A stretch of DNA of 64,000 nt from Paraburkholderia sp. BL10I2N1. GTDB lineage: Bacteria; Pseudomonadota; Gammaproteobacteria; Burkholderiales; Burkholderiaceae. A model generated the notes under the pieces. The model had not been told where the DNA came from. It did no database searches and was given only the letters and a program-made list of their open reading frames with translations. Below are positions 501-13,587 of this stretch, in pieces; the first letter of the stretch is position 1; every line of letters starts with the position of its first letter. The position numbers were made by a program, and so were the translations under genes. The stretch spans positions 4,092,001 through 4,156,000 of the forward strand of contig NZ_SNWA01000001.1 in NCBI RefSeq assembly GCF_004361815.1, read 5' to 3'.

Positions 501-824
501 ATGAGCACATTCCGTAACATCAGGGTGTTCGTCGACCCCAACATGCCAGCGACATTCCGCTGGGTGAACGTCATAGATGGGCCGACCGTTGGCTTCGATG
601 GCGAGATGGTCGTGGCGGTGTACTTCGGTATGGGTGCGCGTAACTCGATCTGGGTGCTCGCTGAGTGGCGCGAGGCGATCGAGAAAACCCCCCTCGCCAC
701 CATGCGGATCGGCCCGGAGCATACACCCATCGAGACAGTACCGTGGACTGACCTGATCGCGAAGATCGACGCGCTCACGGTTGATGCTGTGGTTCAACTC
801 GTGCGCGAACGCATGGAGGTGTGA
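501..824 (+). CDS. Small phage protein, paralogous family A
   Basis: This is a 107-residue protein. ATG 501 is preferred over upstream starts because GAGGAG at 488-493 sits 7 bases before it. The body looks beta-rich (RWVNVIDGPTVGF, MVVAVYF) and ends in a helix, VQLVRERMEV. Weak but ordered similarity to the products at 1605 and 3063 (W-V/I-x-L-F-E-N core, then a DxL helix) suggests duplication. The last codons ATGGAGGTG double as the SD for the next gene. Function is unknown. Confidence 0.7.
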   Translation: MSTFRNIRVFVDPNMPATFRWVNVIDGPTVGFDGEMVVAVYFGMGARNSIWVLAEWREAIEKTPLATMRIGPEHTPIETVPWTDLIAKIDALTVDAVVQLVRERMEV

Positions 825-825
825 G

Positions 826-1101
826 ATGGACGATATAACGGATGACCTGAAGAAGAAGCTGAACCCAGGCTACTGGGAGCGCGACCATAGCGAGGTCCTG
901 TTCAATGCCGTCGTCATCGCCTACCACATGGGCAGGCTGCTGCAGGATGAGCGGCTGATCAATATCGACATGGATGTGTACGACTGGGCGGTGCAGTTCG
1001 AGATCGAGTGGCGTGCGATCGAGGGATACCGAAGTGATCCATGGGTGAAGCTGCGCGAGTTCACCTCGCTCAAGCTCGTAGAGAAACGCATGGAGGTGTG
1101 A
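826..1101 (+). CDS. Small helical phage protein, paralogous family B
   Basis: This 91-residue, mostly helical protein starts one base after the upstream stop (TGAgATG). It shares a layout with the products at 1103 and 1943: NAxxIAxxxG near residue 22-30, then W-AVQFE-x-EW, then a C-terminal helix ending in ERM or QRM. The last residues LVEKRMEV are encoded by a 23-base stretch (1085-1107) identical to 808-830, which includes the SD and start of the following gene. There is no known domain; function is unknown. Confidence 0.7.
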   Translation: MDDITDDLKKKLNPGYWERDHSEVLFNAVVIAYHMGRLLQDERLINIDMDVYDWAVQFEIEWRAIEGYRSDPWVKLREFTSLKLVEKRMEV

Positions 1102-1102
1102 G

Positions 1103-1372
1103 ATGGATGAAGATGCGATCAACGAGTTGTGCACCAACGCCATGCAGATCGGGTTCTTTCTTGCGCAGTATGGCAAGGGCAGCATCGAGGACGTGAAGGC
1201 CGACGTGCTCGACATCGCGCGCCAGTGTGAGAGCGCATGGCGCGCGTACTGTGAGGAGTGCCACGACGAACGGGCCAAAGGCGGAACACCTGCGCAGATG
1301 ACGTTTGTCGACTGGTGCAGCGAGTGGTGCGCCGTGCAGGTTGTGCTCGAACGCATGGGCGTGTCGGAGTAA
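1103..1372 (+). CDS. Small helical phage protein, paralogous family B
   Basis: This 89-residue paralogue of the preceding gene has NAMQIGFFLAQYG, CESAWRAY and a C-terminal VQVVLERMGVSE. It is richer in cysteine (C10, four around residues 50-60, two near the end) than its relatives, though no clear metal site is obvious. It sits one base after the preceding stop with the SD inside the upstream codons. The stop codon begins the 17-base motif at 1370-1386 that recurs at 12012-12028. Confidence 0.7.
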   Translation: MDEDAINELCTNAMQIGFFLAQYGKGSIEDVKADVLDIARQCESAWRAYCEECHDERAKGGTPAQMTFVDWCSEWCAVQVVLERMGVSE

Positions 1373-1386
1373 CGCACCTATCACGC
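1370..1386 (+). repeat. 17-base repeat at a stop codon, copy 1
   Basis: TAACGCACCTATCACGC begins with the stop codon of the upstream gene and is identical to 12012-12028, also beginning at a stop. A 13-base core of it (GCACCTATCACGC) occurs again inside the AAA ATPase gene near 3821. No role is known. Confidence 0.6.
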
Positions 1387-1428
1387 GCGCAAAACGTCAA
1401 CATTTTTAAGGTGCAGAGGAGAAGGACG

Positions 1429-1608
1429 ATGAGTGACATCGACAACACTCTGAAAAACCGCCGCTGGTACATGCGGCAGCGCATCACGTGGCTGACCAAC
1501 GCCATCGAGCGGGTCGAACGCGGTGAGCCGTACAGCATCACGCTGGACGTGCTGAAGCGCAACCTGGCGGACAGCGTGGTGATGCTCATGGAGATGGAGG
1601 AAACATGA
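1429..1608 (+). CDS. Small phage protein (59 aa), unknown
   Basis: ATG 1429 follows a good SD (AGAGGAG). The product is short, basic in the first half (NRRWYMRQRITWL) and helical, ending SVVMLMEMEET. The final Met-Glu-Met-Glu codons ATGGAGATGGAGG carry the SD for the next gene, which starts by a 4-base overlap. This is the same coding economy seen at 808-830. No family is recognised. Confidence 0.6.
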   Translation: MSDIDNTLKNRRWYMRQRITWLTNAIERVERGEPYSITLDVLKRNLADSVVMLMEMEET

Positions 1609-1946
1609 AGAAGAACCTGTGCGAGTTGAAGCCGATCCTCGTCGAGCTGGAGGACGGGGATGGCCACGAGGTCGACGGCTACCACTGGGTCAAGCTGTTC
1701 GAGAACATGCTGTTCATCCTGTTCGACCCGGAGTATGAGCTGTGTGGCGTATCGCAGGAGGGCAGCGGCGGCACTACCTACGTGACGGAGGACTTCTTCC
1801 CGATGGCTGACCTGAACTGGGGCAGCGGCCGGGGCGAGAGGCCCCAGGACACAGTCGTGGCGGTCTCGCAGGAGGAGCTTCAGCAGCTCGTCCACGAGCG
1901 CATGTGCCAGCACACCATTGAAATGCTTCAGGAGCGCATGACATGA
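1605..1946 (+). CDS. Small phage protein, paralogous family A
   Basis: This 113-residue protein starts ATG 1605, overlapping the upstream stop. The central HWVKLFENMLFILF matches NWIGLFENRVLVLV in the product at 3063, and both continue through a VTEDFF/VTAEYA strand to an ELQQLVHERM or ELAEAINERS helix and a final LQERMT or LSSRFD helix. These shared blocks indicate a duplicated fold. It is probably soluble; function is unknown. Confidence 0.7.
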   Translation: MKKNLCELKPILVELEDGDGHEVDGYHWVKLFENMLFILFDPEYELCGVSQEGSGGTTYVTEDFFPMADLNWGSGRGERPQDTVVAVSQEELQQLVHERMCQHTIEMLQERMT

Positions 1947-2209
1947 GCAGCCACGCAGAGCGGGAGCACGACGATCAGTTGCTGATCGAGAACGCGATCG
2001 AGATCGCGCTGTGGGTTGGGCACACCGGCTACAGCCCGGGCAGCGAGGCGCTGGACGAAGCCGGCGGCATCAGCGCGTGGATACAGGATCGCGCGGTGCA
2101 GTTCGAGAAAGAGCACAAGGACGCGGACTGGGACGACCTCCGCGGATACTACGATGCGATCGAGGACTGGATCACGGCGTATGCCGTTGCGCAACGCATG
2201 GAGAACTGA
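1943..2209 (+). CDS. Small helical phage protein, paralogous family B
   Basis: This 88-residue third member of family B starts ATG 1943, overlapping the preceding stop (ATGA). It carries ENAIEIALWVGHTGY, DRAVQFEKEHKD and a C-terminal AYAVAQRMEN, lining up with the products at 826 and 1103. It is strongly acidic. Family A and B members alternate here (501 A, 826 B, 1103 B, 1605 A, 1943 B, 3063 A), which suggests that A-B blocks were duplicated. Confidence 0.7.
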   Translation: MSSHAEREHDDQLLIENAIEIALWVGHTGYSPGSEALDEAGGISAWIQDRAVQFEKEHKDADWDDLRGYYDAIEDWITAYAVAQRMEN

Positions 2210-2210
2210 T

Positions 2211-2387
2211 ATGGCCAAGTCATTCGTATACAACCGGTTTGATATCGTGCCAAGCGGCAACGAGATCCCCGATGCAGAAGGCGAGTGGGTCAAGGCACAG
2301 GACGCCCTCGATCGCGAAGCCGTGCTGCAGGCGAAGATCCGCACGCTCGAAGTCCAACTGAAGGACCTCAAGGAGGGTGAGGCGTGA
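2211..2387 (+). CDS. Small phage protein with C-terminal helix (58 aa)
   Basis: ATG 2211 follows directly on the upstream stop, with GGAG of the preceding RMEN codons as likely SD. The product begins MAKSFVYNRFDIVPSG and ends in a charged amphipathic helix (AKIRTLEVQLKDLKEGEA) that could form a short coiled coil. The last codons AAGGAGGGTGAGG supply the SD for the next GTG start. No family is recognised. Confidence 0.6.
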   Translation: MAKSFVYNRFDIVPSGNEIPDAEGEWVKAQDALDREAVLQAKIRTLEVQLKDLKEGEA

Positions 2388-2548
2388 ACCCCTACCAGCT
2401 GCGTGAGCTGCTGGCCAGCAGCAACATCCACACCCACGACTACGAGCCGACAGGCTGCCTCGATGCGCCGGACCTCATACCCGATGGCGCGACCCGGCTG
2501 CTGACATGGTGCGAGCCTCGCAGGATGGGCAACCGGGAGGGAGCATGA
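2384..2548 (+). CDS. Small phage protein (54 aa), GTG start
   Basis: GTG 2384 overlaps the upstream stop (GTGA) and lies behind AAGGAGGGTGAGG. The 54-residue product (NPYQLRELLASSNIHTHDYE near its start) is polar and ends RRMGNREGA, whose codons contain GGGAGGGAG, the SD of the next ORF. Coupling on both sides is the main evidence that it is translated. Function is unknown. Confidence 0.5.
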   Translation: MNPYQLRELLASSNIHTHDYEPTGCLDAPDLIPDGATRLLTWCEPRRMGNREGA

Positions 2549-2637
2549 ACGACATTAGAGTGCTTCTCATTACGGCGCTGGTGATGCTCGCCATCAGTCT
2601 GGATCTGATCCTCATCTTCCTGCATAACCTGTTTTAA
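2545..2637 (+). CDS. Micro-membrane protein (30 aa)
   Basis: This ORF of 30 codons starts ATG 2545 behind a very strong SD and ends TAA 2637. Apart from MNDIRV and the tail HNLF it is one hydrophobic helix (LLITALVMLAISLDLILIF). It is the last gene before a promoter-containing gap, so it closes a transcription unit. A single-span membrane peptide is likely; role unknown. Confidence 0.5.
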   Translation: MNDIRVLLITALVMLAISLDLILIFLHNLF

Positions 2638-2642
2638 TTTAC

Positions 2643-2671
2643 TTGCTAACAGGACATACACACGTTAGCAT
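2643..2671 (+). promoter_or_regulatory. Candidate sigma-70 promoter
   Basis: TTGCTA (2643-2648), a 17-base spacer, then TAGCAT (2666-2671). The box carries GCTAAC and GTTAGC, the hexamer enriched in this prophage. The arrangement matches the candidate before the ssDNA-binding-like gene at 20296-20324. It would drive 2697 onwards. Confidence 0.45.
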
Positions 2672-2696
2672 CTAACCTACATTTCGTGAGGTACTT

Positions 2697-2915
2697 ATGG
2701 ACCCGGTGCTCAGGCGGTTTACAGCCGTTGACTGGATCGGCGTCATCGCCACGGTGGCAATGGCGTTCGTGGTTGCGTGGTCGTTCTGGATGCGCGACTG
2801 GATCGGTGTGGCGGCTCTCAGCATCTCGCTGGCGATGTGGACGTTCGCTTGCTGGCGCACGTACGTGCGGCGCAAGAAGCAGATGCTCGAAGAGATTTTC
2901 AACAGGATCATGTGA
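2697..2915 (+). CDS. Two-span membrane protein (72 aa)
   Basis: ATG 2697 follows SD GAGGT at 2688-2692. Two hydrophobic spans (about residues 12-29 and 35-52) are separated by a short loop, then comes a basic tail YVRRKKQMLEEIFNRIM that should face the cytoplasm. Size and layout would fit a small phage membrane protein such as a holin or superinfection factor, but nothing specific proves this. It is the first gene after the promoter at 2643. Confidence 0.6.
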   Translation: MDPVLRRFTAVDWIGVIATVAMAFVVAWSFWMRDWIGVAALSISLAMWTFACWRTYVRRKKQMLEEIFNRIM

Positions 2916-2918
2916 GCC

Positions 2919-3062
2919 ATGGACAGCGAACCGAAGGACCCGGAGCGGCAGGCGAAGATCAGGAGCATCCGGCTGGTACTGCGCCGCGAGTGGCTCACGC
3001 CGGCTGAGCGGCTGGAGCTGGAGGCTGCACTCTTACGGCTGATCGGCCACCAGGAGAAGTGA
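2919..3062 (+). CDS. Small basic helical phage protein (47 aa)
   Basis: ATG 2919 to TGA 3062, 47 residues, starting four bases after the upstream stop. The product (KIRSIRLVLRREWLTPAERLEL in part) is basic and helical. The RREWLTPAERLEL segment looks like a short helix-turn-helix or protein-binding helix pair. Its last codons include GGAG, used as SD by the next gene, whose ATG follows immediately. Confidence 0.5.
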   Translation: MDSEPKDPERQAKIRSIRLVLRREWLTPAERLELEAALLRLIGHQEK

Positions 3063-3368
3063 ATGTCCTCGCCAAAAAGACGTATCGCCCAGGTGTTCCC
3101 GGCGGAACTGGACGACCTGCCCGACCTCAACTGGATCGGCCTGTTCGAGAACAGGGTGCTGGTCCTCGTCAGTAAGGACGGCCCGGTCGCCGTGACCCGC
3201 GGTGGAGCATGCGACGACACGCTGGTGACAGCGGAGTACGCCGTGCCGCTGACACTGCGCTTTGAGGACGACATCATCAAGACCGTTCCCCCCGACGAGC
3301 TGGCGGAGGCCATCAACGAGCGCAGCCGGGAGGCCATGCTCGAATACCTGTCCAGCCGATTCGATTGA
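3063..3368 (+). CDS. Small phage protein, paralogous family A
   Basis: This 101-residue protein shares NWIGLFENRVLVLV, DTLVTAEYAVPL and a helical ELAEAINERSREAMLEYL end with the products at 1605 and, more weakly, 501. It probably has a compact beta-sheet core with two C-terminal helices. It ends the small-gene block before the AAA ATPase. Function is unknown; paralogy is the firmest statement. Confidence 0.7.
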   Translation: MSSPKRRIAQVFPAELDDLPDLNWIGLFENRVLVLVSKDGPVAVTRGGACDDTLVTAEYAVPLTLRFEDDIIKTVPPDELAEAINERSREAMLEYLSSRFD

Positions 3369-3448
3369 CTGCTTACTTAGGAGTGCGACACGTCAGGTTT
3401 TGGTTCATCCCCCCAGCAGTAACTTACTAACCAGGTTAGGAGCATCAA
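3369..3448 (+). promoter_or_regulatory. Leader with C6A box before the AAA ATPase
   Basis: This 80-base gap carries CCCCCCA (3409-3415), then TTACTAACC and TTAGGAGCA just before the start. The same order, a run of six C plus A, ACT repeats and GGAGCA, is seen before the genes at 6206 and 19801, with partial versions at 8243 and 10685. The role is unknown; a shared regulatory leader is the inference. Confidence 0.4.
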
Positions 3449-4456
3449 ATGAAATTCGCAGACATCCATACGTCGGTCATGAAGCAGTTCGCCACCACCA
3501 ACCGCATCGTGCCGTTCATCCTCGGCAAGCCCGGCGGCGGCAAGACGGAACTTGGCCGCAAGGTAGGACGTGACTTCGCGTTCGCAGATGGCGGCGGCTT
3601 TGACAAGGTGATCGAGTTCAACGCATCGCTGCGCGATCCGGTCGACCTGCTGGGCACGCCGAACAATACCGGCGAGTGCACCGTGTGGGTGCCGCCGAAA
3701 GAACTGTATGACCTGCGCCAGGGCCGCAACCTGCTGATCCTCGAAGAGCTCAGCGACGCGTCGGTGCCGATGCAGAACGGCCTGTGCGGTCTGATCCATG
3801 ACCGCAAGCTCAACGAGCTGCACCTATCACGCGACACGTACATCATCGCCACGGGCAACCGCACGGAAGACAAGTCCGGTGCGAACCGCATCACGTCGAA
3901 GCTCGCCAACCGGACGCGGCGCTTTGACTTCGACGAGAACATCGACGACTGGTGCGAGTGGGCGCTCAACGCGGGCATCGACATCATGCTGATCCAGTTC
4001 CTGCGCTTCAAGCCCAACCTGTTGTCCGACTTCGATCCGAACCGCTTCCAGAACCCCACTCCCCGCTCGTGGGAGCGCGTGTCGCTGATCCCGGAGGACC
4101 TCGATGCGGACCTGTTCTACGGCAACGTGGCGGGCGAGGTGGGTGAAGGCGCGGCGGCTGAGTTCACGGCCTTTCGCAAGGTAGCCGCAAACCTGCCGAA
4201 CATCGACAACATCATCATGAACCCGGCGACGGCACCCGTGCCCGAAGGCGACCCGGCGGTGATGTATGCGCTGACCGGCGCAATCGCACAGCGCACGTCC
4301 AAGGACAACCTGGACCGCATCAACGAGTATATGGACCGGTTGCCGGTGGACTTCTCCGTGCTTTTTATGAGTGACGTGGTGAAGATGAAGCCCGAGGTGA
4401 AATCGACAAAAGCCTTTGTGGGCTGGGCGGTAAGGAACGCCAGTGTCTTAGTGTGA
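3449..4456 (+). CDS. MoxR-type AAA+ ATPase
   Basis: This is a 335-residue AAA+ protein. Walker A is GKPGGGKTE (residues 26-34), Walker B is LLILEE (about 95-100) and the sensor-1 region is IIATGNRTED (about 131-140). This order is typical of MoxR/CobS-like remodelling ATPases, which usually work with a VWA-domain partner. That partner is present at 8243, a protein with a metallopeptidase-like motif and a MIDAS-like DxSGS. ATG 3449 has the SD TTAGGAGCA. In the cell it would act as a cytoplasmic hexamer remodelling a protein complex; the target is unknown. Confidence 0.88.
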   Translation: MKFADIHTSVMKQFATTNRIVPFILGKPGGGKTELGRKVGRDFAFADGGGFDKVIEFNASLRDPVDLLGTPNNTGECTVWVPPKELYDLRQGRNLLILEELSDASVPMQNGLCGLIHDRKLNELHLSRDTYIIATGNRTEDKSGANRITSKLANRTRRFDFDENIDDWCEWALNAGIDIMLIQFLRFKPNLLSDFDPNRFQNPTPRSWERVSLIPEDLDADLFYGNVAGEVGEGAAAEFTAFRKVAANLPNIDNIIMNPATAPVPEGDPAVMYALTGAIAQRTSKDNLDRINEYMDRLPVDFSVLFMSDVVKMKPEVKSTKAFVGWAVRNASVLV

Positions 4457-4460
4457 TGCC

Positions 4461-4772
4461 ATGAAACGCCACCGTTACCACATGGACATCCAGAAGGGGC
4501 TCATCCTGGTCAACGGTGGCGTGTCCCACCCCAACGGCTGGATGATCCTGCGCAGCGGGGACTTGAACAAAGCATGGCGCCGCTACTACCCGCCGGGCTA
4601 CAACGAGAGATTCGCCGGGAGGGACGACGCGAGGGCCACGCTGGTGCGCCACTACACCGGCAGCCAGGAGTGGTGGGTCTCGTGGGTGAGCGGCCCGGAG
4701 ACAGGCAGTGAGATCGGTCCGTTCCCGAGCAAGGCAGCGGCGTGGGCCGCGTACAAACTGTTAACGAGTTAG
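4461..4772 (+). CDS. Small phage protein, paralogous family C
   Basis: This 103-residue protein starts four bases after the ATPase stop. It is rich in Trp and Tyr, with a beta-type core (EWWVSWVSGPETG) and a closing IGPFPSKAAAWAAYKLL helix. The block G-P-F-P-S/T-x-x-A-A-x-A-A recurs in the products at 5292, 5608 and 5934. The strand-strand-helix pattern is like small DNA- or protein-binding modules such as AP2-like folds, but no assignment is made. Confidence 0.65.
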   Translation: MKRHRYHMDIQKGLILVNGGVSHPNGWMILRSGDLNKAWRRYYPPGYNERFAGRDDARATLVRHYTGSQEWWVSWVSGPETGSEIGPFPSKAAAWAAYKLLTS

Positions 4773-4781
4773 GAGGTTGGT

Positions 4782-5282
4782 ATGGGTACAGATATCCACA
4801 TGGTGCTCGAACGCGAGCACAACGGTAAATGGGTGGGCGTGCACAACTTCGACAGCAGGCACATGGAATACAACGAGGCCACGCGGCAAGCAGTGGTGGC
4901 GTACAACGCCACGCTGGGGAGTGATGTTGAGTACGGCCTGCGCGCACAGCTGCCCATGTACTGCGACTGGGGTGTGCGACACCGGAACTACGCCCTGTTC
5001 GGTTCGCTGGCGAATGTGCGGCGGGATGGCGATGGCGCACCAGATCCGAAAGGCGTACCGGACGACGTGTCCGACCTGGCCAGAATGGAGATCGATGGCT
5101 GGGGCATCGATGGACATAGCCACACATGGTGGACGCTGCGGGAAGCGCTGCCGGTGTTCGCCGCGCATATATGCCCCGAAGACCTCCTGGGCGAAGAGCG
5201 CAAGAGGCTGTCGAGCAGGCTGTTCGAGGTCGACGAGGAGGATGTAGACCAGTACCGGCTGATCATCTGGTTCGACAATTGA
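4782..5282 (+). CDS. Conserved phage protein of MGTDIH type
   Basis: This 166-residue protein starts ATG 4782 after a perfect TAGGAGG. It begins MGTDIHMVLE and contains RNYALFGSLANVR, GVPDDVS and a DGHSHTWWTLRE segment. That order matches a hypothetical protein met in many tailed phages, recognised here from memory of the family's look. The conserved Asp and His residues (DIH, DGHSH) could bind metal. No activity is established. It lies between two family C genes. Confidence 0.65.
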   Translation: MGTDIHMVLEREHNGKWVGVHNFDSRHMEYNEATRQAVVAYNATLGSDVEYGLRAQLPMYCDWGVRHRNYALFGSLANVRRDGDGAPDPKGVPDDVSDLARMEIDGWGIDGHSHTWWTLREALPVFAAHICPEDLLGEERKRLSSRLFEVDEEDVDQYRLIIWFDN

Positions 5283-5291
5283 GGGTCAATC

Positions 5292-5606
5292 ATGAAGATC
5301 ACCTTCAAGCATCGCAATGGCAGGCATGATGACGTGCCCGGCTGCATCCCGTCCAACCTCACAACGATCTTCTACGATGAGCAGGGGCAAGGCGGCCGGA
5401 TGATGTGGCTTTCGGTACTCCATGATGCACCCACGTGGCTGTACTGCGGCGGGGATAGCCCGGACCTCTGGGAGCGTACCGTGGTTCGCCATCCGGGCGG
5501 GGGCTGGTATATCCATGCCTGGGACACCAGGTTTCCCGGCGAGCCGTCCCAGCGTTTCCCTTGCCGCAAGGCAGCCTTCACGGCTGCGCGCGTGCTGGGG
5601 TTCTGA
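5292..5606 (+). CDS. Small phage protein, paralogous family C
   Basis: This 104-residue protein has SD GAGGG before ATG 5292. Its C-terminal half reads WERTVVRHPGGGWYIHAW, then QRFPCRKAAFTAARVLGF, the family C ending. The N-terminal half (TTIFYDEQG, MMWLSVLHD) is beta-rich. Together with 4461, 5608 and 5934 it forms a cluster of four related neighbours. Confidence 0.65.
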   Translation: MKITFKHRNGRHDDVPGCIPSNLTTIFYDEQGQGGRMMWLSVLHDAPTWLYCGGDSPDLWERTVVRHPGGGWYIHAWDTRFPGEPSQRFPCRKAAFTAARVLGF

Positions 5607-5607
5607 G

Positions 5608-5937
5608 ATGAAGATCATCAAGAAGGTCCACAGGCAGGTCCAGACCGTGGCTGAGCGGTCCTACTACCTGATGGAGGATGAGGACGGCGGCAGGTGGGAG
5701 ACCGACTTCCGCAACGATGCGATGCTGGTGTTTCCTCCCCGATGGCTCGCCAGTAACGGCACCCATATCTGGATGATTGCGCGGTGGCGCGGTGGCGGCT
5801 ACTGGCTGTGCCATTCATTCACCGAGGCATGGGTCGTCGACGACCGTCTCCGCAAGCAGTCCGAGCCGATCCCCGAGATCGGTCCGTTCCCCACACGCAG
5901 GGCGGCGATCGCCGCGATGAGGGTGTTGCATTCATGA
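5608..5937 (+). CDS. Small phage protein, paralogous family C
   Basis: This 109-residue protein starts ATG 5608, one base after the upstream stop. It opens MKIIKKVHRQVQTVAE, like MKIIEKQVETES in the next gene, and closes IGPFPTRRAAIAAMRVLHS. The similar openings and shared ending make 5608 and 5934 the clearest recent duplicates of family C. Function is unknown. Confidence 0.68.
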   Translation: MKIIKKVHRQVQTVAERSYYLMEDEDGGRWETDFRNDAMLVFPPRWLASNGTHIWMIARWRGGGYWLCHSFTEAWVVDDRLRKQSEPIPEIGPFPTRRAAIAAMRVLHS

Positions 5938-6164
5938 AGATCATCGAGAAGCAGGTTGAGACGGAGAGCTGCTACCCCACCATCAAGCTGGAGAACGGCT
6001 GGACGATCGTGTTCCGCGGCGAGGTGACAGAGGTGTGGGTGGACCAGAAGATCTTCGCCCTCAAGGACGAATCGGGCTGGCGCCCTTACCGGCTGTCCGC
6101 AAGATGGAGCAGCGACGAACGCTACCCGTCCCGCCTGGCGGCGATGGTGGCAGCGAGGATGTAG
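5934..6164 (+). CDS. Small phage protein, paralogous family C
   Basis: This 76-residue protein overlaps the upstream stop by ATGA. It is a shorter copy of the preceding gene: MKIIEKQVETES, a central LENGWTIVFRG strand pair, and the end RYPSRLAAMVAARM. It terminates the family C cluster, followed by a C6A leader before the next gene. Confidence 0.65.
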   Translation: MKIIEKQVETESCYPTIKLENGWTIVFRGEVTEVWVDQKIFALKDESGWRPYRLSARWSSDERYPSRLAAMVAARM

Positions 6165-6205: not shown

Positions 6206-7096
6206 ATGGACATGCGTGCAACCCCCCTGTGCGCCAAAGCAATGCTCGTCAAACTGACGATCCGCCGCGCGAACCTGTCGCGCCGGGACGCTGCGGCCGA
6301 GACGCTGATCCAGCAGACGCTGGACGACGCCAGCCTGATCGTCAGCAGCAAGCTGTTCCGCGACAAGGCCAACCCCGTCAACCGGATCATGTCGACGGCC
6401 GCCGAGGTCTACACCTATCACAAAAAGCATACGCTACCGTGGGCCGACAAAGGTCCGCGGCTGCTGCCCAACGGGCTCTACTTCGAATACCGTGACGCCA
6501 TGCGCCACCGCATCGCCCAGGTGGACGCGATGCTCAACGAGCACATGCCGCACTACGACTCGTATGTGAGCACGGACATCGCCTGCCGCAGCAAGTCACT
6601 CGGCGCGGCCTCGCGTGCCCAGGTGGGGGACTACCCTTCGGCGGAACAGTTCAGGGAGCGTATGGGGTTTGACCTGCGCTTCTCCCCGCTGCCCGACAGC
6701 CAGCACTTCCTGTTCGATCTGTCCGCCGAAGACCAGGCGGGATTCGAGCAGGCGCTCACCGATGCGCGCATCGGCGCACGCAACGATGCAGTGCGCAGGA
6801 TGTTAGAACCTACCCAGCATCTGGTTAGCAGGTTGAACGTCCCAATCGGCGAAAACGGGAGTATATTTCGTGACTCGGCGCTCACCAATGTGGTGGAAGG
6901 GATCGACCTGGCGAGGAAGCTGACGCTGGACGAAGACCCCGATATCACGGCGGTGACGGAAGAGCTGGCGAAGGCGGTGCGCAAGTGCGTGGACGGCAAG
7001 GAGCTGCTGCGTGAGTCGCCTGCCACGCGCGAGGCGGCGGTGAAGAAGCTCGAGCAGCTGGCCTCGCAGATGAGTGCGTTCATGGTGGGAGTGTGA
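6206..7096 (+). CDS. DUF3150-like phage protein
   Basis: This 296-residue protein is mainly helical. The centre carries THE motif order seen in a phage family usually labelled DUF3150: a VKLTIRR start, YHKKHTLPWADKG, RLLPNGLYFEY, then PSAEQFRERMGFDLRFSPLPD and IFRDSAL. That label is from memory and should be tested. Such proteins are found near MoxR-type ATPases and VWA proteins in phages and mobile elements, and here it sits between the two. It may be the third subunit of that machine. The last 22 bases (7075-7096) recur at 7260-7281. Confidence 0.65.
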   Translation: MDMRATPLCAKAMLVKLTIRRANLSRRDAAAETLIQQTLDDASLIVSSKLFRDKANPVNRIMSTAAEVYTYHKKHTLPWADKGPRLLPNGLYFEYRDAMRHRIAQVDAMLNEHMPHYDSYVSTDIACRSKSLGAASRAQVGDYPSAEQFRERMGFDLRFSPLPDSQHFLFDLSAEDQAGFEQALTDARIGARNDAVRRMLEPTQHLVSRLNVPIGENGSIFRDSALTNVVEGIDLARKLTLDEDPDITAVTEELAKAVRKCVDGKELLRESPATREAAVKKLEQLASQMSAFMVGV

Positions 7097-7281
7097 CCGC
7101 CGCCGAGTGGTCGGCAGCGCTGCTGGTTCGCGCCCGGCTCGCTGGCATGGATGAAAACGTGATACGCGAGTGGCGCTGGCAGCTGGAGTGCGACAACTGG
7201 TATGAGGCGCAGTTGCAGCTGGAACTGGCGCTGCTGCAACTTGAAGAAGGAGGACCCGATGCGTTCATGGTGGGAGTGTGA
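7093..7281 (+). CDS. Small helical phage protein, paralogous family F
   Basis: This 62-residue protein starts GTG 7093, overlapping the upstream TGA. It contains SAALLVRARLAGMDENVIREW, shared with AAMVELRLAGANEHVINRF in the product at 7563. It ends AFMVGV, exactly like the preceding DUF3150-like protein, because a 22-base junction is duplicated. Function is unknown. Confidence 0.55.
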   Translation: MTAAEWSAALLVRARLAGMDENVIREWRWQLECDNWYEAQLQLELALLQLEEGGPDAFMVGV

Positions 7282-7787: not shown

Positions 7788-8017
7788 AGAAGCTCAAACG
7801 CAGAGCGCTGCAGGCGAAGCGCCAGCGTTACAACCTCTTCCTCGCCACGCAGTACCAGGTCGCCGCAGGGATGCTGCGCATCGTAGGAGGCTTTGACGAC
7901 AGCGTGGAGTTCATCGGCACCCTCGACCACGAGCTGCGCAAGAAGAATCGCAGCTGGGTGCAGCACACGCTGGCCACGGCGGGGCTGCCGCAGATTGACC
8001 TGTGGGGCAAGCCATGA
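7784..8017 (+). CDS. Small basic phage protein (77 aa)
   Basis: ATG 7784 overlaps the upstream stop. The first 20 residues are strongly basic (MKKLKRRALQAKRQRYN), then come a hydrophobic-polar middle (GMLRIVGGFDDSVEFIG) and a polar end. It could bind nucleic acid through its N-terminus, but no fold is recognised. It overlaps the next gene by ATGA. Confidence 0.55.
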   Translation: MKKLKRRALQAKRQRYNLFLATQYQVAAGMLRIVGGFDDSVEFIGTLDHELRKKNRSWVQHTLATAGLPQIDLWGKP

Positions 8018-8246
8018 GCGACGACGCTGTTAGCACCCTCTCCCCCGTAGAGGAGCGCATTTACCTGCTGGTGCGGCTGCGCATGCTCGGCGTACGCCCT
8101 CCGCCCTCCGCATATGGGGTGACACCAACCCGCATGACTTTGAGGACATGGCCAGGCTGCGCAAGCGTGTCCAGCTTGAAGAGATGTGCCAGGAAGCACT
8201 CGTGCAGTACCCACTAACTGACTTACCCACCGGAGCAAAGTCATGA
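8014..8246 (+). pseudogene. Small phage gene with a frameshift at a G run
   Basis: The ORF from ATG 8014 reads SPVEERIYLLVRLRMLGVRP sensibly (family F-like), then turns into low-quality sequence and stops at 8217. In the other frame, from about 8118, the reading is GDTNPHDFEDMARLRKRVQL and on to a TGA at 8244-8246 that overlaps ATG 8243 of the next gene, the normal coupling here. One extra G in the run 8116-8119 would join the halves. Either a sequencing or assembly undercall, a real mutation, or a programmed -1 shift would explain it. Confidence 0.6.
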
Positions 8247-9385
8247 GAAACGTTAGCAAGCTGGACAAGGCCAAGGCCGCCATTGTTCTCGATAACCCGT
8301 TCTTCGCCAGCATCCTGCTGCGCCGCCCGATGGTCGCGCGCGAGGACATCCCGCTGTTCGCGATCAACCAGCGCGGCACGATCTATTACAACCCGAAGAA
8401 CATCGAGGCGCTCCCCGTGCCGCAGATCGTCTGGGGCCTGTGCCATGAGTGCATGCACTACATGGGCCAGCACGCTGCGCGCCAGCAGGCCCGCAAGCAC
8501 AAGAAGTGGAACTACGCGACGGACTACTTCATCAACGACACGCTGACCAGCGCCAAGGTCGGCGAGCCGATCCCGGCGACGCTGCAGATGGACGGCGCGA
8601 AGGACAAGAGCTGCGAGGCGATCTACGACGAGATGCCGGACAACGACGACAACGGCAGCGGCCAGGGTGACGGCCAGGGTGACGGCGGGAACCAGGGCGG
8701 CATGGGCGACGACATCCTGCAGGAAGGCACGCCGATGACTGAGTCGGAGATCAAGGAGCAGGCCGCGCAGACCAAGATCGAGATCGCTGAAGCGGCGCAG
8801 GCCGCGAAGATGCGCGGCAAGCTGCCGGCTGCACTCGCCGAGTATGCGGCCGACGTGCTCGATGCAAAGACCCCGTGGCACGACATCCTGGAGCGGTTCA
8901 TGGTTGGCATGACCAACATGGACTCCACCTGGGCGCGGCCGAACCGCCGGTTTATCCCGAGTGGCGTGTACCTGCCGTCGATGGCCAAGCAGCCAACGAT
9001 GGGTGAGCTGGTGGTGCAGATCGACGTGTCGGGCTCGATCAGCAAGCAGGAACTTGCCTACTACAACGGCCATCTTAAGCGCATCGTCTCGCAGTGCAAC
9101 CCGGAGAAGGTCCACGCGATCTATGTGGACACCCAGGTGCAAAAGCACGTCGTGTTCGAGCAGGGCGAAGAGGTCGACCTCGAGTTCTATAGCGGCGGCG
9201 GCACGCACATGCCGGCGGGGTTCGACTGGGTCGAGGAGGAAGGCATCGAGCCCGATGCGGTGGTCGTGCTGACCGATGGCTATACCGGCTGGGGCGAGCA
9301 GCCTGACTTCCCGGTGATCTGGTGCATCAGCAGCGACGTGCAGGCGCCGTATGGTGAAAATGTGCACTTCGAGATGGAGCACTGA
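8243..9385 (+). CDS. Putative metallopeptidase / VWA-like protein
   Basis: This is a 380-residue protein. The N-terminal half has a zinc-peptidase-like HECMH (residues 68-72) in LCHECMHYMGQH. A Gly/Asp-rich linker with GQGDGQGDGG lies around 140, a helical acidic section follows, and the C-terminal VWA-like domain has the MIDAS-type DVSGSIS (from D261) and VVLTDGYT (about 340). This layout fits the putative metallopeptidase plus DUF2201 VWA-like family. It should pair with the MoxR ATPase at 3449. SD CGGAGCA precedes ATG 8243. Confidence 0.82.
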   Translation: MRNVSKLDKAKAAIVLDNPFFASILLRRPMVAREDIPLFAINQRGTIYYNPKNIEALPVPQIVWGLCHECMHYMGQHAARQQARKHKKWNYATDYFINDTLTSAKVGEPIPATLQMDGAKDKSCEAIYDEMPDNDDNGSGQGDGQGDGGNQGGMGDDILQEGTPMTESEIKEQAAQTKIEIAEAAQAAKMRGKLPAALAEYAADVLDAKTPWHDILERFMVGMTNMDSTWARPNRRFIPSGVYLPSMAKQPTMGELVVQIDVSGSISKQELAYYNGHLKRIVSQCNPEKVHAIYVDTQVQKHVVFEQGEEVDLEFYSGGGTHMPAGFDWVEEEGIEPDAVVVLTDGYTGWGEQPDFPVIWCISSDVQAPYGENVHFEMEH

Positions 9386-9386
9386 A

Positions 9387-9596
9387 GTGGGCGACCGCGG
9401 CCCCAGGCCAGATGGATGGGAGCAGATCGCGCCGGACGTCTGGCTATATACCGCATCCGGCACGTCGCGCGCGATGGTGTGGAAGGGGCCGTGGGCCACG
9501 GTGTGGAACGTCACCCCGTCCGACCCGCCACTCATGGAACCTGATCTCGAGACGGCGTGTGCGCTCGCGGTCGCGCTGTACCGGCTGGGAGGCTGA
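9387..9596 (+). CDS. Small phage protein, paralogous family D
   Basis: This 69-residue protein starts at GTG 9387, one base after the VWA stop, with GGAG seven bases upstream. It holds several Trp residues (DGWEQIAPDVWLY, VWKGPWATVWNV) in a strand-rich body and ends with the helix PDLETACALAVALYRLGG. The last codons CTGGGAGGC are the SD for the next member. It is the first of four related tandem genes. Confidence 0.6.
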   Translation: MGDRGPRPDGWEQIAPDVWLYTASGTSRAMVWKGPWATVWNVTPSDPPLMEPDLETACALAVALYRLGG

Positions 9597-9597
9597 G

Positions 9598-9801
9598 ATG
9601 GAATGGACGCTTGATGTCACGGACTATGACCTGCGCGACGGGAATGGCACGCTCCTCGCCTTCACCTATACGCCGGCAGGGCAGACCACCCGGTCATTCG
9701 CGCTGTGTGGGCCGTACAGCGATGGGCACGGGTTCGCAACCGAGGCCGAGGCGCGCGAGGCATGCCTTGCCAGCCTCGTCGCCGCACGCATGGAGGCCTG
9801 A
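9598..9801 (+). CDS. Small phage protein, paralogous family D
   Basis: This 67-residue protein starts ATG 9598, one base after the preceding stop. MEWTLDVTDYDLRDGNG opens a beta-rich body, and FATEAEAREACLASLVAARMEA closes it as a helix. The body-helix arrangement and the ATGGAGG junction match its two downstream neighbours. Function is unknown. Confidence 0.65.
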   Translation: MEWTLDVTDYDLRDGNGTLLAFTYTPAGQTTRSFALCGPYSDGHGFATEAEAREACLASLVAARMEA

Positions 9802-9802
9802 G

Positions 9803-10015
9803 ATGGAATGGCGAGTGCTTAACGCCTCCCCGGAGCAATGGGAGCTGGTTGATGACGGGCGGTTCCAGCTCGCGATCGTGTACCGCAGAGAGTTTGCCGG
9901 GAAGTACAGCTTTGTCACCGCGCACCGCCTCGGCGGGAATCCGTACTTCGAGACGCCCGAGGAAGCCATGCAGGCGGCCCTGGTCGCTGTCGTTGAAGGG
10001 AGGCTTGAGTCATGA
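9803..10015 (+). CDS. Small phage protein, paralogous family D
   Basis: This 70-residue protein reads MEWRVLNASPEQWELVDDG, then FQLAIVYRREFAGKYSFVTA and a final helix FETPEEAMQAALVAVVEGRLES. It is clearly related to the genes on both sides. Its likely fold is three or four strands followed by one helix. It overlaps the next gene by ATGA. Confidence 0.65.
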   Translation: MEWRVLNASPEQWELVDDGRFQLAIVYRREFAGKYSFVTAHRLGGNPYFETPEEAMQAALVAVVEGRLES

Positions 10016-10221
10016 GATGGAATCATTCCGGCCTCACCCCGTACGACGAGTGGTACCTCCTCGACGATGCGGACAATTCCCTCGCCCGTATCTGGCGCGC
10101 TCACATGGCTGACGGCTACGCGTGCCTTGTACGCACGGGGGTGTGCCTCTATGAGCCCACGCTGGAGGCCGCCATGGAGAAAGCCGTTGTCGAAGTCGTT
10201 ACAGGGAGGCTTGAGGCATGA
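10012..10221 (+). CDS. Small phage protein, paralogous family D
   Basis: This 69-residue protein starts ATG 10012 inside the previous stop. MRWNHSGLTPYDEWYLLDD opens it and YEPTLEAAMEKAVVEVV plus TGRLEA closes it. The shared end with 9803 (E-A-A-M-x-x-A-x-V-x-V-V-x-G-R-L-E) shows a recent duplication. Function is unknown. Confidence 0.65.
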   Translation: MRWNHSGLTPYDEWYLLDDADNSLARIWRAHMADGYACLVRTGVCLYEPTLEAAMEKAVVEVVTGRLEA

Positions 10222-10406
10222 CCACCAGAAGTGCTGCGATCGAGGTAGAGGTCATCACGCGCTCGGAGCGTGTGGGGCCGCCGAAGTATTTCGTGAACAT
10301 CAACGTGAACCGCACCCCATGGAAGTCCCTGCCGGTTGACGAGCCCATCACGATCGTCGAGGCGTTGTCGTTAGCAGCTGTCGAGTACAAGTTAGCCCAT
10401 TCATAG
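10218..10406 (+). CDS. Small phage protein (62 aa)
   Basis: ATG 10218 overlaps the preceding stop, and its SD is the GGGAGG of the upstream GRLEA codons. The strands IEVEVITRSE and YFVNINVNRTPW are followed by a helix VEALSLAAVEYKLAHS, so the fold could be the same strand-helix type as family D although residues have diverged. The last codons contain two GTTAGC hexamers. Confidence 0.55.
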   Translation: MTTRSAAIEVEVITRSERVGPPKYFVNINVNRTPWKSLPVDEPITIVEALSLAAVEYKLAHS

Positions 10407-10416
10407 GAGATAAAAG

Positions 10417-10650
10417 ATGGACAAGAACCTTGAACTGCTGCGCACCGTGGTGATCGCGAAGCTCGTGTACTGGGACGCGCTGGGCGAGCTGGAGAAGCGC
10501 CTGGCCCCCGATGGCGAGTTCTCCGACCGCGCGAACAACGATGTGATTGACGAGATCGCCACGCTGGCTTCCGCGCTGCACGGTCCGCATGACGTAGGCG
10601 CCATCACGCAGGAACACCTGAGCGAGATCGAAGAGCTCGCCAGGCAGTAA
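10417..10650 (+). CDS. Small acidic helical phage protein (77 aa)
   Basis: ATG 10417 follows TAGGAGA. The 77-residue product is acidic and helical (MDKNLELLRTVVIAKLVYW, DVIDEIATLASALHG, HLSEIEELARQ). No motif is recognised. It is followed by a gap that carries the C6A box at 10658-10664. Confidence 0.6.
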   Translation: MDKNLELLRTVVIAKLVYWDALGELEKRLAPDGEFSDRANNDVIDEIATLASALHGPHDVGAITQEHLSEIEELARQ

Positions 10651-10684
10651 CGCAGTACCCCCCACTGACTAACTGGAAATCAAA

Positions 10685-11419
10685 ATGTACACATACGCAG
10701 AGCTTAAGGCGTTCTTCGACGGTCGCCGCTTCAAGGACCGCAACTACCGCAACGGCCTGGAGAGCGGGAGCATCGCCATCCATGAGGAGACGGTAGGCGG
10801 CAGGAGCTACATGTCGGTCTACCTGTACAACACCCGCATCGTGATGATGGAGCCCGACAACACATGCACCATCCACATAGGCGGATGGGACTCGCCCTCC
10901 ACCCGCAAGTACATCTGGTGGTTCGCCCGGGTCAACCTCTCGCACGACAGAGACACCACGGGGCTGAACAACCGGCTGCGCGTGGGCTGCTCCAAGGCGG
11001 GCAGCCTCCCCTTCATCGACGGTCTCAGGTTCCGCAACGGCGAGTGCCTCAACCCGGAACTGTGCCCGCCCGATGAGATTGCCCGGGTCAAGCGCTCGGC
11101 CATCACGGAGGTCCAGCGCAAGCTGCGCCCGCTGAAGTCGCTGATGCTCGCACTGGCGCGGTTCGACGCACTCGAGCGGAGCCAGTCCAGCTACATGTGC
11201 GTAATCCCCAGCGACGAGGAACTGGCCGAGCCCACCGTGGAAATGGCGAGCGCGCTGTATGAGCGTGGCCTTGCTATGACCCCCGGCTGGCTGGTCAAGC
11301 AAAAGGTAGCCATCGAGAGCGGACTGCGCTGGCTGCGTCACGAGCTCTACAACAGCGACCCCAACAACTTCAACGTCGAGGTGACCTGCCATGGGCACGA
11401 TCTCAGAAAAGCTGCTTGA
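10685..11419 (+). CDS. Conserved phage protein, unknown function (244 aa)
   Basis: The N-terminal half has a beta-rich segment with VYLYNTRIVMMEPDN, then TCTIHIGGWDSPSTRKYI, a block similar to the LYNTxVV...SGGW.T.TTK pattern common in phage hypothetical proteins. The C-terminal half is helical and basic. There is no clear SD before ATG 10685 (CTGGAAATCAAA), so translation may be weak. It overlaps the next gene by 29 bases. The activity is unknown. Confidence 0.65.
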   Translation: MYTYAELKAFFDGRRFKDRNYRNGLESGSIAIHEETVGGRSYMSVYLYNTRIVMMEPDNTCTIHIGGWDSPSTRKYIWWFARVNLSHDRDTTGLNNRLRVGCSKAGSLPFIDGLRFRNGECLNPELCPPDEIARVKRSAITEVQRKLRPLKSLMLALARFDALERSQSSYMCVIPSDEELAEPTVEMASALYERGLAMTPGWLVKQKVAIESGLRWLRHELYNSDPNNFNVEVTCHGHDLRKAA

Positions 11420-12014
11420 TGAGTACCGCAACATCAACGTCGAGCACGAGGAGTGGTGGGGCTGCGTCTACTCCGACTGGATCGAGAAGCTCGCGGAGAA
11501 AGGCATCACCACCAGCGCTGACCAGATGCAGTTCAGCGGGTTCTGGAGCCAGGGCGACGGAGCGAGCTTCACCGGCCACATCAACCTGCAGCGTTTCATG
11601 GAGGTGCATGCGCTGGTGGATGAATACCCCGGGCCGTACCACTTCGCGAAGCGGGACGAGGTGATCGCGGACCTCGTGCGCAGCCGCTCCTCCCACTACT
11701 GCCACGAGCAGACCGTGCATGCCGAGCTCGACGACGACTGCCAGGTTGACTGGCGGGCGGCCGAGGAAGGCGAGCTGCGCGCGGTGGTCGATGCAGCGAT
11801 GTTCGACCAGTATGAGGAGAGCGATGACGGGCTCACGGACGACATCGACCGGATCTGCCGGGGTTACATGCAGGAGTTCTATCGCGAGCTCGAGAAGGAG
11901 CATGACTACCTGACGAGCGACGAGGCCGTGCGCGAGTGGCTGGAGATCAACGAGATCTTCGATGACGAAGATGAGGAAGATGAAGAAGAAGTAACCGGGG
12001 TGGTCGAAGCATAA
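11391..12014 (+). CDS. Conserved phage protein with FSGFWSQGDG motif
   Basis: This is a 207-residue acidic protein. It carries MQFSGFWSQGDGASFTGHI around residues 43-61, a block I recall from a widespread phage hypothetical family, followed by HYCHEQTVHAELDDD and a very acidic tail (IFDDEDEEDEEEV). It starts within the end of the previous gene. The acidic tail and conserved aromatic block suggest a protein-binding or DNA-mimic role, which is inference. The stop begins the 17-base repeat at 12012-12028. Confidence 0.65.
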   Translation: MGTISEKLLDEYRNINVEHEEWWGCVYSDWIEKLAEKGITTSADQMQFSGFWSQGDGASFTGHINLQRFMEVHALVDEYPGPYHFAKRDEVIADLVRSRSSHYCHEQTVHAELDDDCQVDWRAAEEGELRAVVDAAMFDQYEESDDGLTDDIDRICRGYMQEFYRELEKEHDYLTSDEAVREWLEINEIFDDEDEEDEEEVTGVVEA

Positions 12015-12028
12015 CGCACCTATCACGC
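12012..12028 (+). repeat. 17-base repeat at a stop codon, copy 2
   Basis: Identical to 1370-1386, again starting with the TAA stop of the upstream gene. It is followed by ACTTACTGACGGAGCA before the next start, which resembles the tail of the C6A leaders. Confidence 0.6.
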
Positions 12029-12054
12029 AATCACTTACTGACGGAGCATCGCCC

Positions 12055-12399
12055 ATGAGCATCCAGCAAAGAGCAGTCGAGTTCGCCATCGCCCGGCTGC
12101 AGGCCGCCGGCGCATCGTTTCATATCCGTGACGCAGACGGCGTCGAGTACGGGGAGCCGATCCCCAAGAAGCGCACCCGCATCGCGCAGGTCAACGGCCC
12201 ATCGCTCCTGCATCTGTACCAGGACAAGATCGGCGCCATGGTCAACATGGGCGACGTGTGCGCGATCGACATCCCCGAGGGGGTCGATGCCAGGCGGCTG
12301 AAGCACAACGCGGAGTCCTATGCCCGCAACCGCTACGGGCATGGCTCGGTGATGGGATGTATAGAAAACAATCAGGTGCAGCTGATGCGCCTGAAGTAA
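12055..12399 (+). CDS. Phage protein, unknown (114 aa)
   Basis: ATG 12055 follows CGGAGCA. The product has a helical start (QQRAVEFAIARLQAAGASFHI), a middle segment KKRTRIAQVNGPSLLHLY and a mixed end. The AIARLQAAGASFHIRDADG stretch resembles the small phage proteins that carry a helix plus two strands. No family is named and no active-site pattern is visible. Confidence 0.6.
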   Translation: MSIQQRAVEFAIARLQAAGASFHIRDADGVEYGEPIPKKRTRIAQVNGPSLLHLYQDKIGAMVNMGDVCAIDIPEGVDARRLKHNAESYARNRYGHGSVMGCIENNQVQLMRLK

Positions 12400-12449
12400 A
12401 CGCCGCAGTGGGGAAAACCATGAACGGATCAGGATGAAGGAGCATTGAA

Positions 12450-12668
12450 GTGAACAACACCGACCACAAGCGGCTTGCCCGAGTGGAATCCAGGCTGGTC
12501 CAGCTGATGCTGCACCTGGGCCTCGACCCGCATGAACGCCTCTACGAGACCCCGAACGATGGCAAGGACCCTGAATATCCAGCACACCTTAGAACGTATC
12601 TACGCCGCCCAAGAGAGGATCCCCCATGTCGACGACCTGAAGAAGAAGGAGTTGCAGCTGGCGATTGA
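12450..12668 (+). CDS. Small phage ORF, end uncertain
   Basis: GTG 12450 has AAGGAGC nine bases upstream. The first 35 residues (HKRLARVESRLVQLMLHLGL) look like a real helical protein. The rest (RRPREDPPCRRPEEEG) looks like an out-of-frame reading of the next ORF, which it overlaps by 110 bases. The true product may be shorter in a strain without a frameshift, or the two ORFs may be one broken gene. Confidence 0.35.
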   Translation: MNNTDHKRLARVESRLVQLMLHLGLDPHERLYETPNDGKDPEYPAHLRTYLRRPREDPPCRRPEEEGVAAGD

Positions 12669-12780
12669 CGCCGCGGTCTCGGTGGTCGTTATCTACCTGA
12701 AGCTGGGGCGCGAGCCGGCCATCAAGGAGAAGCACTGGGCCGGCGTGAAAAAGCTGGATTCGGTTATGGAAAGGTGCTAA
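12559..12780 (+). CDS. Small phage protein (73 aa)
   Basis: The segment IQHTLERIYAAQERIPHVDD, then LQLAIDAAVSVVVIYLKLG, is well formed and helical. Start ATG 12559 is the nearest to the conserved-looking part, although its SD is poor, and ATG 12532 is the alternative. It ends the transcription unit before the gap at 12781. The relation to the overlapping ORF at 12450 is unclear. Confidence 0.5.
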   Translation: MARTLNIQHTLERIYAAQERIPHVDDLKKKELQLAIDAAVSVVVIYLKLGREPAIKEKHWAGVKKLDSVMERC

Positions 12781-12781
12781 C

Positions 12782-12823
12782 TTAGCCACCCATGTTAGCG
12801 TGTGTATGGGAATAAGTTAGCAA
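12782..12823 (+). promoter_or_regulatory. Candidate promoter region with GTTAGC boxes
   Basis: The gap holds GTTAGC twice (12794-12799 and 12816-12821), with a GCTAAC at the upstream gene end. Two 17-base-spaced pairs are possible: TTAGCC with TATGGG, or TTAGCG with TAGCAA. Neither is strong, so only the region is given. It would drive 12855 and the polymerase gene. Confidence 0.35.
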
Positions 12824-12854
12824 CACAAATGTACTTTGTCTGGAGTCCCGCACA

Positions 12855-13280
12855 ATGTGGCCTTTCCGTAAAAAGGAGCCCGAAGTGAGCAGCAACGACC
12901 CGAACCTTCAGCCGAACGCGGTAGCGCAGATCACCGGCCAGCAGTTGCAGAACCAGTTGCAGAACCAGATGCAGAGCTCCGGCCTGGCCAACCAGGCCGC
13001 CCAGGGCAGCCTGTTCGGCGCAGGGATCGGCGTGTACGACCCTGGCCACTCCCACAGCATCCTGACCTACCCGTATGGTGGCCAGGGGGTTCAGGCGCCC
13101 ATCACGCAGCAGCCCCGTCCCGACTCGTGGAGCGTCAACATCGAGCGCACCGAGAACGGCTTCCTCGTCGACCTCCTCGACCGGCAGAGCTCGCGCACGC
13201 GGCGCTACATCGCGGCCTCGCTGGATGAAGTGCTGGAGAACATCGCCGCCGGTTTCGCGACAGCAGCGCTGGAGAAATGA
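12855..13280 (+). CDS. Phage protein, family E, Gln-rich N-terminus
   Basis: This 141-residue protein has a basic start (MWPFRKKEPE), then a Gln/Asn-rich stretch with QLQNQLQNQM (two copies of a 12-base repeat), a Gly/Pro linker, and a folded C-terminal part from about residue 88. That part, WSVNIERTENGFLVDLLD and then AASLDEVLENIAAGFA, aligns with the end of the next gene. The N-terminal region is probably disordered. Function is unknown. Confidence 0.65.
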   Translation: MWPFRKKEPEVSSNDPNLQPNAVAQITGQQLQNQLQNQMQSSGLANQAAQGSLFGAGIGVYDPGHSHSILTYPYGGQGVQAPITQQPRPDSWSVNIERTENGFLVDLLDRQSSRTRRYIAASLDEVLENIAAGFATAALEK

Positions 13281-13281
13281 G

Positions 13282-13587
13282 ATGTCGAACGGGATGTACA
13301 GGCCGTTCTCCCGGGAGGAGGCCACACACATACTCGACGCCATGGGCCTGAGCGGCCCGGCAGCGCTGCCCATCCCCTCACCCCCCAGAACGGAGGTACA
13401 AAAAGTGGCAGCAGGTGATTTCAACATCACGCTCGTGAAGGTCGAGAACGGCTACATCGTCTCGGTCATCCCGATGGGCAAGACGGTGGAGTACGCGAGG
13501 AAGTTCGTCGCGCACGAGCTGAAGGAAGTGCTGGAGCTCACCCTCGCGGCCATCGCGGCCGAGCGCATGACGTCACCCCCGGGGTGA
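13282..13587 (+). CDS. Phage protein, family E (101 aa)
   Basis: ATG 13282 is one base after the upstream stop. A short N-terminal part (SREEATHILDAMGLSG) and Pro-rich linker precede FNITLVKVENGYIVSVIP and AHELKEVLELTLAAIAAERM, which align with the C-terminal domain of the product at 12855. The two are a duplicated pair directly before the polymerase gene. The fold again looks like strands plus one long helix. Confidence 0.65.
   Translation: MSNGMYRPFSREEATHILDAMGLSGPAALPIPSPPRTEVQKVAAGDFNITLVKVENGYIVSVIPMGKTVEYARKFVAHELKEVLELTLAAIAAERMTSPPG

Follow-up and report, generated by a model that had tools for sequence, protein, structure and literature searches.

In group 2.2 jumbo phages, genes for a MoxR AAA+ ATPase and a metallopeptidase-vWA protein are proposed to encode a chaperone and cochaperone for the assembly of virions, in which peptides are also processed (PMC7824862). 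A second precedent is Island3, where the neighbouring, unrelated small proteins gp67 and gp68 have a common C-terminal end of 18 residues at the DNA level (PMC3029335). Here we describe a 64,000-nucleotide stretch of Paraburkholderia sp. BL10I2N1 (bases 4092001-4156000 of contig 1; host genome 9.2 Mb in 4 contigs), hereafter the window, in which an ATPase gene (3449) and a metallopeptidase-VWA gene (8243) are accompanied by arrays of tiny paralogous proteins. One of these families, D, keeps the same address beside the two genes across divergent phages. The 3449 product matches phrog_1297 (ATPase, 1.8e-67) and N4 gp24 (2e-35), which makes it an AAA+ ATPase of phage type, although Pfam AAA_5 reaches just 0.0068, under the cut-off. 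The 8243 product matches DUF2201_N (2.2e-45) and DUF2201 (1.2e-23), both over the cut-off, and N4 gp25 (7e-26). Its PHROG family, phrog_1314, is labelled HNH endonuclease, as against metallopeptidase plus VWA in Pfam, and N4 gp25 carries the same label.

Related loci were fetched via the VWA gene with flanks of at most 10 kb (80 loci kept of 90 matching in an alignment search, VWA identity 32-71%), and a further set of 101 loci was fetched via the DNA polymerase. In seven viral-contig loci (L001-L007) the VWA protein is 60-71% identical to that of the window, and the gene order is common to L001-L005 and L007 where covered. A sequence-only reading of the window had proposed at least five recurring families of small proteins (A to E, with a weaker F). 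Gene calling by codon usage and Shine-Dalgarno (SD) sequence recovers 20 of the 21 listed open reading frames (ORFs), 18 of them at the given start; 501 is called from 495 and 13282 from 13405. When 35 small window proteins were compared all against all by Smith-Waterman alignment with shuffled controls, five of the 595 pairs pass Bonferroni correction: D3/D4 (2e-10), A2/A3 (4e-5), E1/E2 (0.004), D2/D3 (0.0055) and C2/C3 (0.03). All five fall inside the proposed families, and the excess similarity over shuffled sequences that had been named beforehand as a check is thus present. Among the same 595 pairs, B1/B2, B1/B3, every A1 pair and every pair of 7283 or 10218 are not significant, and F1/F2 is marginal (0.09). 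With the relatives included (174 proteins, 119 without near-copies), the number of pairs with E<0.05 is 91 of 7021, versus 1 in the reversed control. A within-locus paralogue test over 62 loci gives 32 pairs versus 7 in reversed controls, 15 of them in the window and L001-L007 (window 5, L002 4, L001 3, L005 2, L007 1) and 17 elsewhere.

Profiles built without window rows recover C4 (4e-11), C3 (7e-8), C2 (6e-7) and C1 (0.0023), E1 (3e-13) and E2 (3e-9), and D3 (6e-7), D4 (1e-4) and D1 (0.0043); the best reversed-sequence matches are 0.24 for E, 1.4 for D and 2.1 for C. D2 is weak in this search (0.086) and is counted as a member because of its significant pair with D3. By these similarities, D (9387, 9598, 9803, 10012), C (4461, 5292, 5608, 5934), E (12855, 13282) and A2/A3 (1605, 3063) are true paralogue sets, so that C and E stand as proposed and repeated duplication is supported inside each of the four sets. 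Relatives of A2 were not found in the fetched loci. The remaining memberships fell away. A1 (501) has no significant pair. The two suggested extra members of D, 7283 and 10218, are unmatched by the D profile, and 10218 has orthologues of its own in relatives. B as a trio (826, 1103, 1943) is circular, B1 and B2 being recovered only with all three as seeds, and a B3 profile matches its own orthologues and neither B1 nor B2. F (7093, 7563, 8014) is left with its marginal F1/F2 pair, since 8014 (F3) is not called as a gene.

On iteration, the D profile settles at 76 unique ORFs (E<0.01) in related phage loci, with 0 reversed and 0 minus-strand matches, and in the host genome exactly 4 matches at E≤0.1 are found, which are the array itself. 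The comparison of copy numbers in related phages suggested by the sequence-only reading shows that D varies from 1 to 9 copies per fetched locus holding any D: L071 and L079 have 9 each, L080 has 6, and the window and five close relatives have 4 each (identical ORFs counted per locus; L003 does not reach the D position). The D3 model (pLDDT 92.6) has four strands followed by a long C-terminal helix. In a 56-member alignment, Ala55 is found in 56/56, R67 in 46/56 and M or L at position 68 in 52/56 members, and Trp3 in 38/38 members with a residue at that column. Strand positions alternate between conserved (mean entropy 1.39 bits) and variable (3.30 bits), the two groups having been picked from the same data as are compared. 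The alignment and the model point to one predicted D fold, in which the core is conserved and some strand positions vary. No clear or curated-score match to D or C proteins was found in Pfam, PHROG, NCBIfam or PADLOC, the stray matches being to single members only (best 0.0043 in Pfam and 0.0056 in PHROG), and a literature search, which reached few subscription papers, found no description of D. The family looks new, an undescribed set of one-domain proteins.

The position of D was counted in the 34 loci that hold D and in which the ATPase or VWA gene could be placed, using the other called small genes as background. Beside one of the two genes lie 92 of 97 D copies versus 107 of 554 other small genes. 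The D copies fall at most 1.5 kb after the VWA gene (69), at most 0.6 kb after the ATPase gene (14), at most 0.7 kb before the ATPase gene (9) and elsewhere (5), and the corresponding background counts are 43, 16, 48 and 447. After removal of the close clade, the distant loci give 45, 14, 9 and 5 for D (68/73 in zones) against 36, 9, 35 and 316 for the background (80/396 in zones). All 45 of 45 E copies lie outside the D zones, and in the window clade the C family occupies the interval from the ATPase gene to the 6206 gene.

Comparison of close relatives shows exchange gene by gene. Between L001 and L002, identity is 34% for C2 and 25% for C3, as against 98-99% for the orthologous products of the ATPase, C1 and 6206 genes. 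L005 has a C2 like that of L001 (99%) and a C3 like that of L002 (95%), and the sequence around the C2/C3 junction is common to both types. Similarly, L001 and L005 share 37% and 45% identity in Da and Db; their Dc, Dd and D5 are identical. The switch between divergent and near-identical sequence is thus seen at gene junctions in L001, L002 and L005, at C2-C3 and Da-Dc, a pattern by which single genes are replaced between near-identical phages. Such exchange could reflect an ordinary mosaic hot spot, that is, old duplicates of small accessory genes that recombine at their boundaries and have no common task, with similar endings that are mainly ribosome-binding sites. In agreement with this explanation, array junctions are no more conserved relative to gene bodies (65% versus 54%, n = 31) than two control junctions (76% versus 65%, n = 14), the array figures being lowered by doubtful starts (CTG in L001 Dc and possibly an earlier start in L004 Db). 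This comparison does not support a special recombination element at the junctions of the arrays. Exact repeats of at least 15 bp centred on two junctions are over-represented (6/32 in the clade and 11/96 in distant loci), compared with position-only expectations of 0.14 and 0.21 that ignore the consensus of SD and start. In the window, exact repeats of 22-23 bp sit at junctions, and the unrelated 6206 and 7093 products end in the same six residues, tails common to unrelated genes of the kind for which the Island3 gp67/gp68 pair is a precedent (PMC3029335).

The last-helix motif EAxxAAxxxxxxRM/RL proposed for most of these proteins bears on the same question. We scored the last six codons for Arg and defined an end as coupled when the successor starts within 8 bases. 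In the window and five relatives, AGG makes up 23/56 Arg codons at coupled ends, 84/1346 in gene bodies and 5/26 at uncoupled ends; the figures in distant loci are 68/192, 735/7331 and 29/139. From the excess at coupled ends it follows that the last codons double as the SD sequence of the next gene, although the excess is not confined to such ends, because uncoupled ends also exceed bodies. R[ML] endings differ only modestly, being found at 27/87 coupled versus 7/54 uncoupled ends (P = 0.016), and at 27/74 versus 7/40 when small genes are taken (P = 0.05). The SD sequence as sole cause was rejected, since D members retain RM/RL away from the stop, and the ending is therefore also a feature of the D protein. 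Within D, AGG is used in 23/39 cases near the stop and in 8/13 further away, several of the latter looking like one orthologue group. The RM/RL ending thus has two causes: it is part of the D fold, and where genes are coupled it also holds the SD signal of the gene that follows. The motif is real in D, and some of the C-terminal likeness among these proteins is due to ribosome-binding sites. The retention of RM/RL away from the stop, together with the conserved D core and the fixed address, argues against a hot spot with no common task, which we regard as unlikely.

The arrays could also be, much as the sequence-only reading had suggested, an independent arsenal: early in infection, each tiny protein would bind and inhibit its own target in the host or its defences, and the surroundings of the ATPase and VWA genes would be no more than a tolerant site. 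Tiny early phage ORFs are often host-directed, and a single fold in which some positions vary, differences in copy number and the turnover of genes would all be expected of such a set. It leaves unexplained, however, why nearly all D copies flank the ATPase or VWA gene across divergent phages. The lack of a PADLOC defence-model match also counts against an arsenal, but such models would not cover inhibitors anyway. On balance this alternative, too, seems unlikely.

The sequence-only reading had further proposed a shared plan, strands then a last helix, for most of these proteins. In the two models made, D3 follows this plan and C4 (pLDDT 81) does so partly, with six strands and a short helix; a Polo-box-like fold is a tentative candidate for C. 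Since D and C differ in predicted topology, one plan for every family is not supported. Within D, the alternating strand positions would suit a fold that is common while the surfaces differ. That A to F are all variants of one fold is very improbable: the D-E profile comparison (61.7% over 45 columns, spanning the last strands and helix only) does exceed 100 reversed decoys (top 36.3%, for a family against itself; next 8.5%) and makes a remote D-E tie possible, but the D, C and E match sets do not overlap, D-C (23.1%) is in the range of D5-F (29.6%) and E-B3 (19.8%), and D against A, B3 and F gives 0.2%, 3.2% and 0.5%.

The tiny one-domain proteins of these arrays are paralogous, most of their genes are translationally coupled, and the arrays are anchored to the AAA+ ATPase and metallopeptidase-VWA genes; the account that we tentatively favour is that D proteins are exchangeable binding partners of this module. 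D genes are swapped singly between phages, and the 3′ end of one gene bears the ribosome-binding site of the one that follows. The D proteins would act in physical contact with the ATPase and VWA proteins, most probably as adaptors or clients that can replace one another and direct the pair to different targets. The C proteins, whose genes follow the ATPase gene in this clade, may also work with the pair. Because D keeps a fixed address by the two genes, partnership with the module is the most economical inference. A narrower version, in which D forms an exchangeable panel of substrate adaptors with one docking core and different recognition faces, its genes swapped at ribosome-binding-site junctions, is doubtful; if true, it would let a phage turn a single protein-remodelling machine on new targets, of the host or of the virus.

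Several points weigh against a partnership of D with the pair, which is an argument from gene position. The zones were set after positions had been inspected, the loci share ancestry and the flanks are limited to 10 kb, so that the P values of 9e-49 and 7e-34 overstate the case; four short loci contributed D copies and 0 background genes. D was found in 33 of the 80 VWA-fetched loci and the window, and was undetected in the other 47, some of which have little flank. It was also found in 0 of the 101 polymerase-fetched loci, 31 of which carry a more distant VWA match. The ATPase-VWA pair therefore works without D, since many VWA loci have no detected copy. Moreover, the orthologues of 10685 and 11391, two larger genes nearby, show the same kind of replacement (47% and 49%, next gene 99%), and turnover is therefore not special to the arrays.

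Coordinates of the array members, the two anchor genes and neighbouring features in the window
Feature	Position	Strand	Evidence or remark
A2, paralogue of A3	1605..1946	+	Bonferroni 4e-5
A3, paralogue of A2	3063..3368	+	pair with A2
AAA+ ATPase, relative of N4 gp24	3449..4456	+	phrog_1297 and N4 gp24 matches
C1, C family, 103 aa	4461..4772	+	window-free C profile 0.0023
C2, C family, 104 aa	5292..5606	+	pair with C3; profile
C3, C family, 109 aa	5608..5937	+	pair with C2; profile
C4, C family, 76 aa	5934..6164	+	modelled: six strands, helix 67-75; profile
Metallopeptidase-VWA protein (DUF2201_N + DUF2201), relative of N4 gp25	8243..9385	+	Pfam; N4 gp25 match
D1, D-family mini-protein, 69 aa, GTG start	9387..9596	+	window-free D profile 0.0043; called gene
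D2, D-family mini-protein, 67 aa	9598..9801	+	D3 pair Bonferroni 0.0055; window-free profile 0.086
D3, D-family mini-protein, 70 aa	9803..10015	+	modelled: strands 2-5, 12-16, 22-29, 34-39, helix 52-69
D4, D-family mini-protein, 69 aa	10012..10221	+	D3 pair Bonferroni 2e-10; profile
E1, E family, 141 aa	12855..13280	+	pair with E2; profile
E2, E family, 101 aa	13282..13587	+	pair with E1; profile
Junction repeat 1a, 23 bp, A1 end / 826 start	808..830	+	second copy 1085-1107, 826 end / 1103 start
Junction repeat 2a, 22 bp, 6206 gene end / F1 start	7075..7096	+	second copy 7260-7281, F1 end
DNA polymerase	13591	+	same operon
Exonuclease	16322	+	same operon
Helicase	18114	+	same operon
Primase/helicase-like protein	21683	+	same operon

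All these genes lie in a plus-strand phage operon that spans window position 1 to about 25 kb. Because SU10-type adaptor (6.5e-33) and portal (1.6e-15) genes are found on the minus strand in the 20 kb upstream, we take the region as the replication-side operon of a prophage of an SU10-like phage. A 17-bp exact repeat (1370-1386 and 12012-12028) lies in intergenic spacers directly past the stops of the 1103 and 11391 genes, with a related 14-mer at 3820 and a similar stretch near 18143 in L184; it is perhaps a promoter or operator. In L184 (about 18000-18400), the divergent region that separates structural genes on the minus strand from replication genes on the plus strand contains, by eye, repeated TTTAAG-TAGA-like stretches. 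A 24-bp repeat (159-182 and 285-308) lies within a coiled-coil-like ORF (50-370). In L001 (15503-18244), as also in L002, the DNA polymerase ORF has 913 aa versus about 631, and homology resumes past what appears to be an in-frame, intein-like insertion at residue ~425. Upstream of the ATPase gene in L001, L002, L004 and L005 there is a further tiny, helical-looking family of 13 ORFs, which was not detected in the window. Directly upstream of the ATPase gene in L026 (6829-7008), L053 (6278-6466) and L066 (6237-6446) are small proteins that carry a TSRER(V/I)(R)QIEQ-like motif and may resemble sigma factor region 4.

Tiny orphan proteins abound in phage early regions and are hard to study without relatives. 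One such set can now be treated as a family whose fold is predicted with confidence, whose copies per locus have been counted and whose address is fixed, which makes it testable whether its members bind the ATPase-VWA pair. A practical point also follows for other loci: when the products of coupled small genes end alike, the cause can be a ribosome-binding site and not homology, and AGG at the terminal Arg is a simple check.

A predicted shape like that of D is seen in small uncharacterised phage proteins of BFVD, namely A0A6J5KMJ5 (TM-score by query length 0.83, E 0.025), A0A291AXC7 of Shigella phage Sf11 (0.60, E 0.0078) and N4 gp8, A0MZA0 (0.63, E 0.23; E 2.5 against the D profile). With 15-20% identity and none at E≤0.001, the likeness is one of shape, which does not establish common descent, and the D profile finds no convincing member among 22 N4 proteins (best 0.05). 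The exchange seen here resembles Island3 gp67/gp68 in that unrelated neighbours have a common C-terminus at the DNA level and exchange takes place near gene boundaries; unlike in Island3, the shared ends are 22-23 bp long, include the SD signal of the gene that follows and sit among paralogous arrays (PMC3029335). N4 gp24 and gp25 are homologous to the 3449 and 8243 products, phage-borne and in the same operon. The gene pair of group 2.2 jumbo phages, for which MoxR is the published label, is likewise phage-borne (PMC7824862). Unlike in that pair, the ATPase and VWA genes here are 3.8 kb apart, with the C family and other genes between them, and they are accompanied by the multi-copy D mini-proteins.

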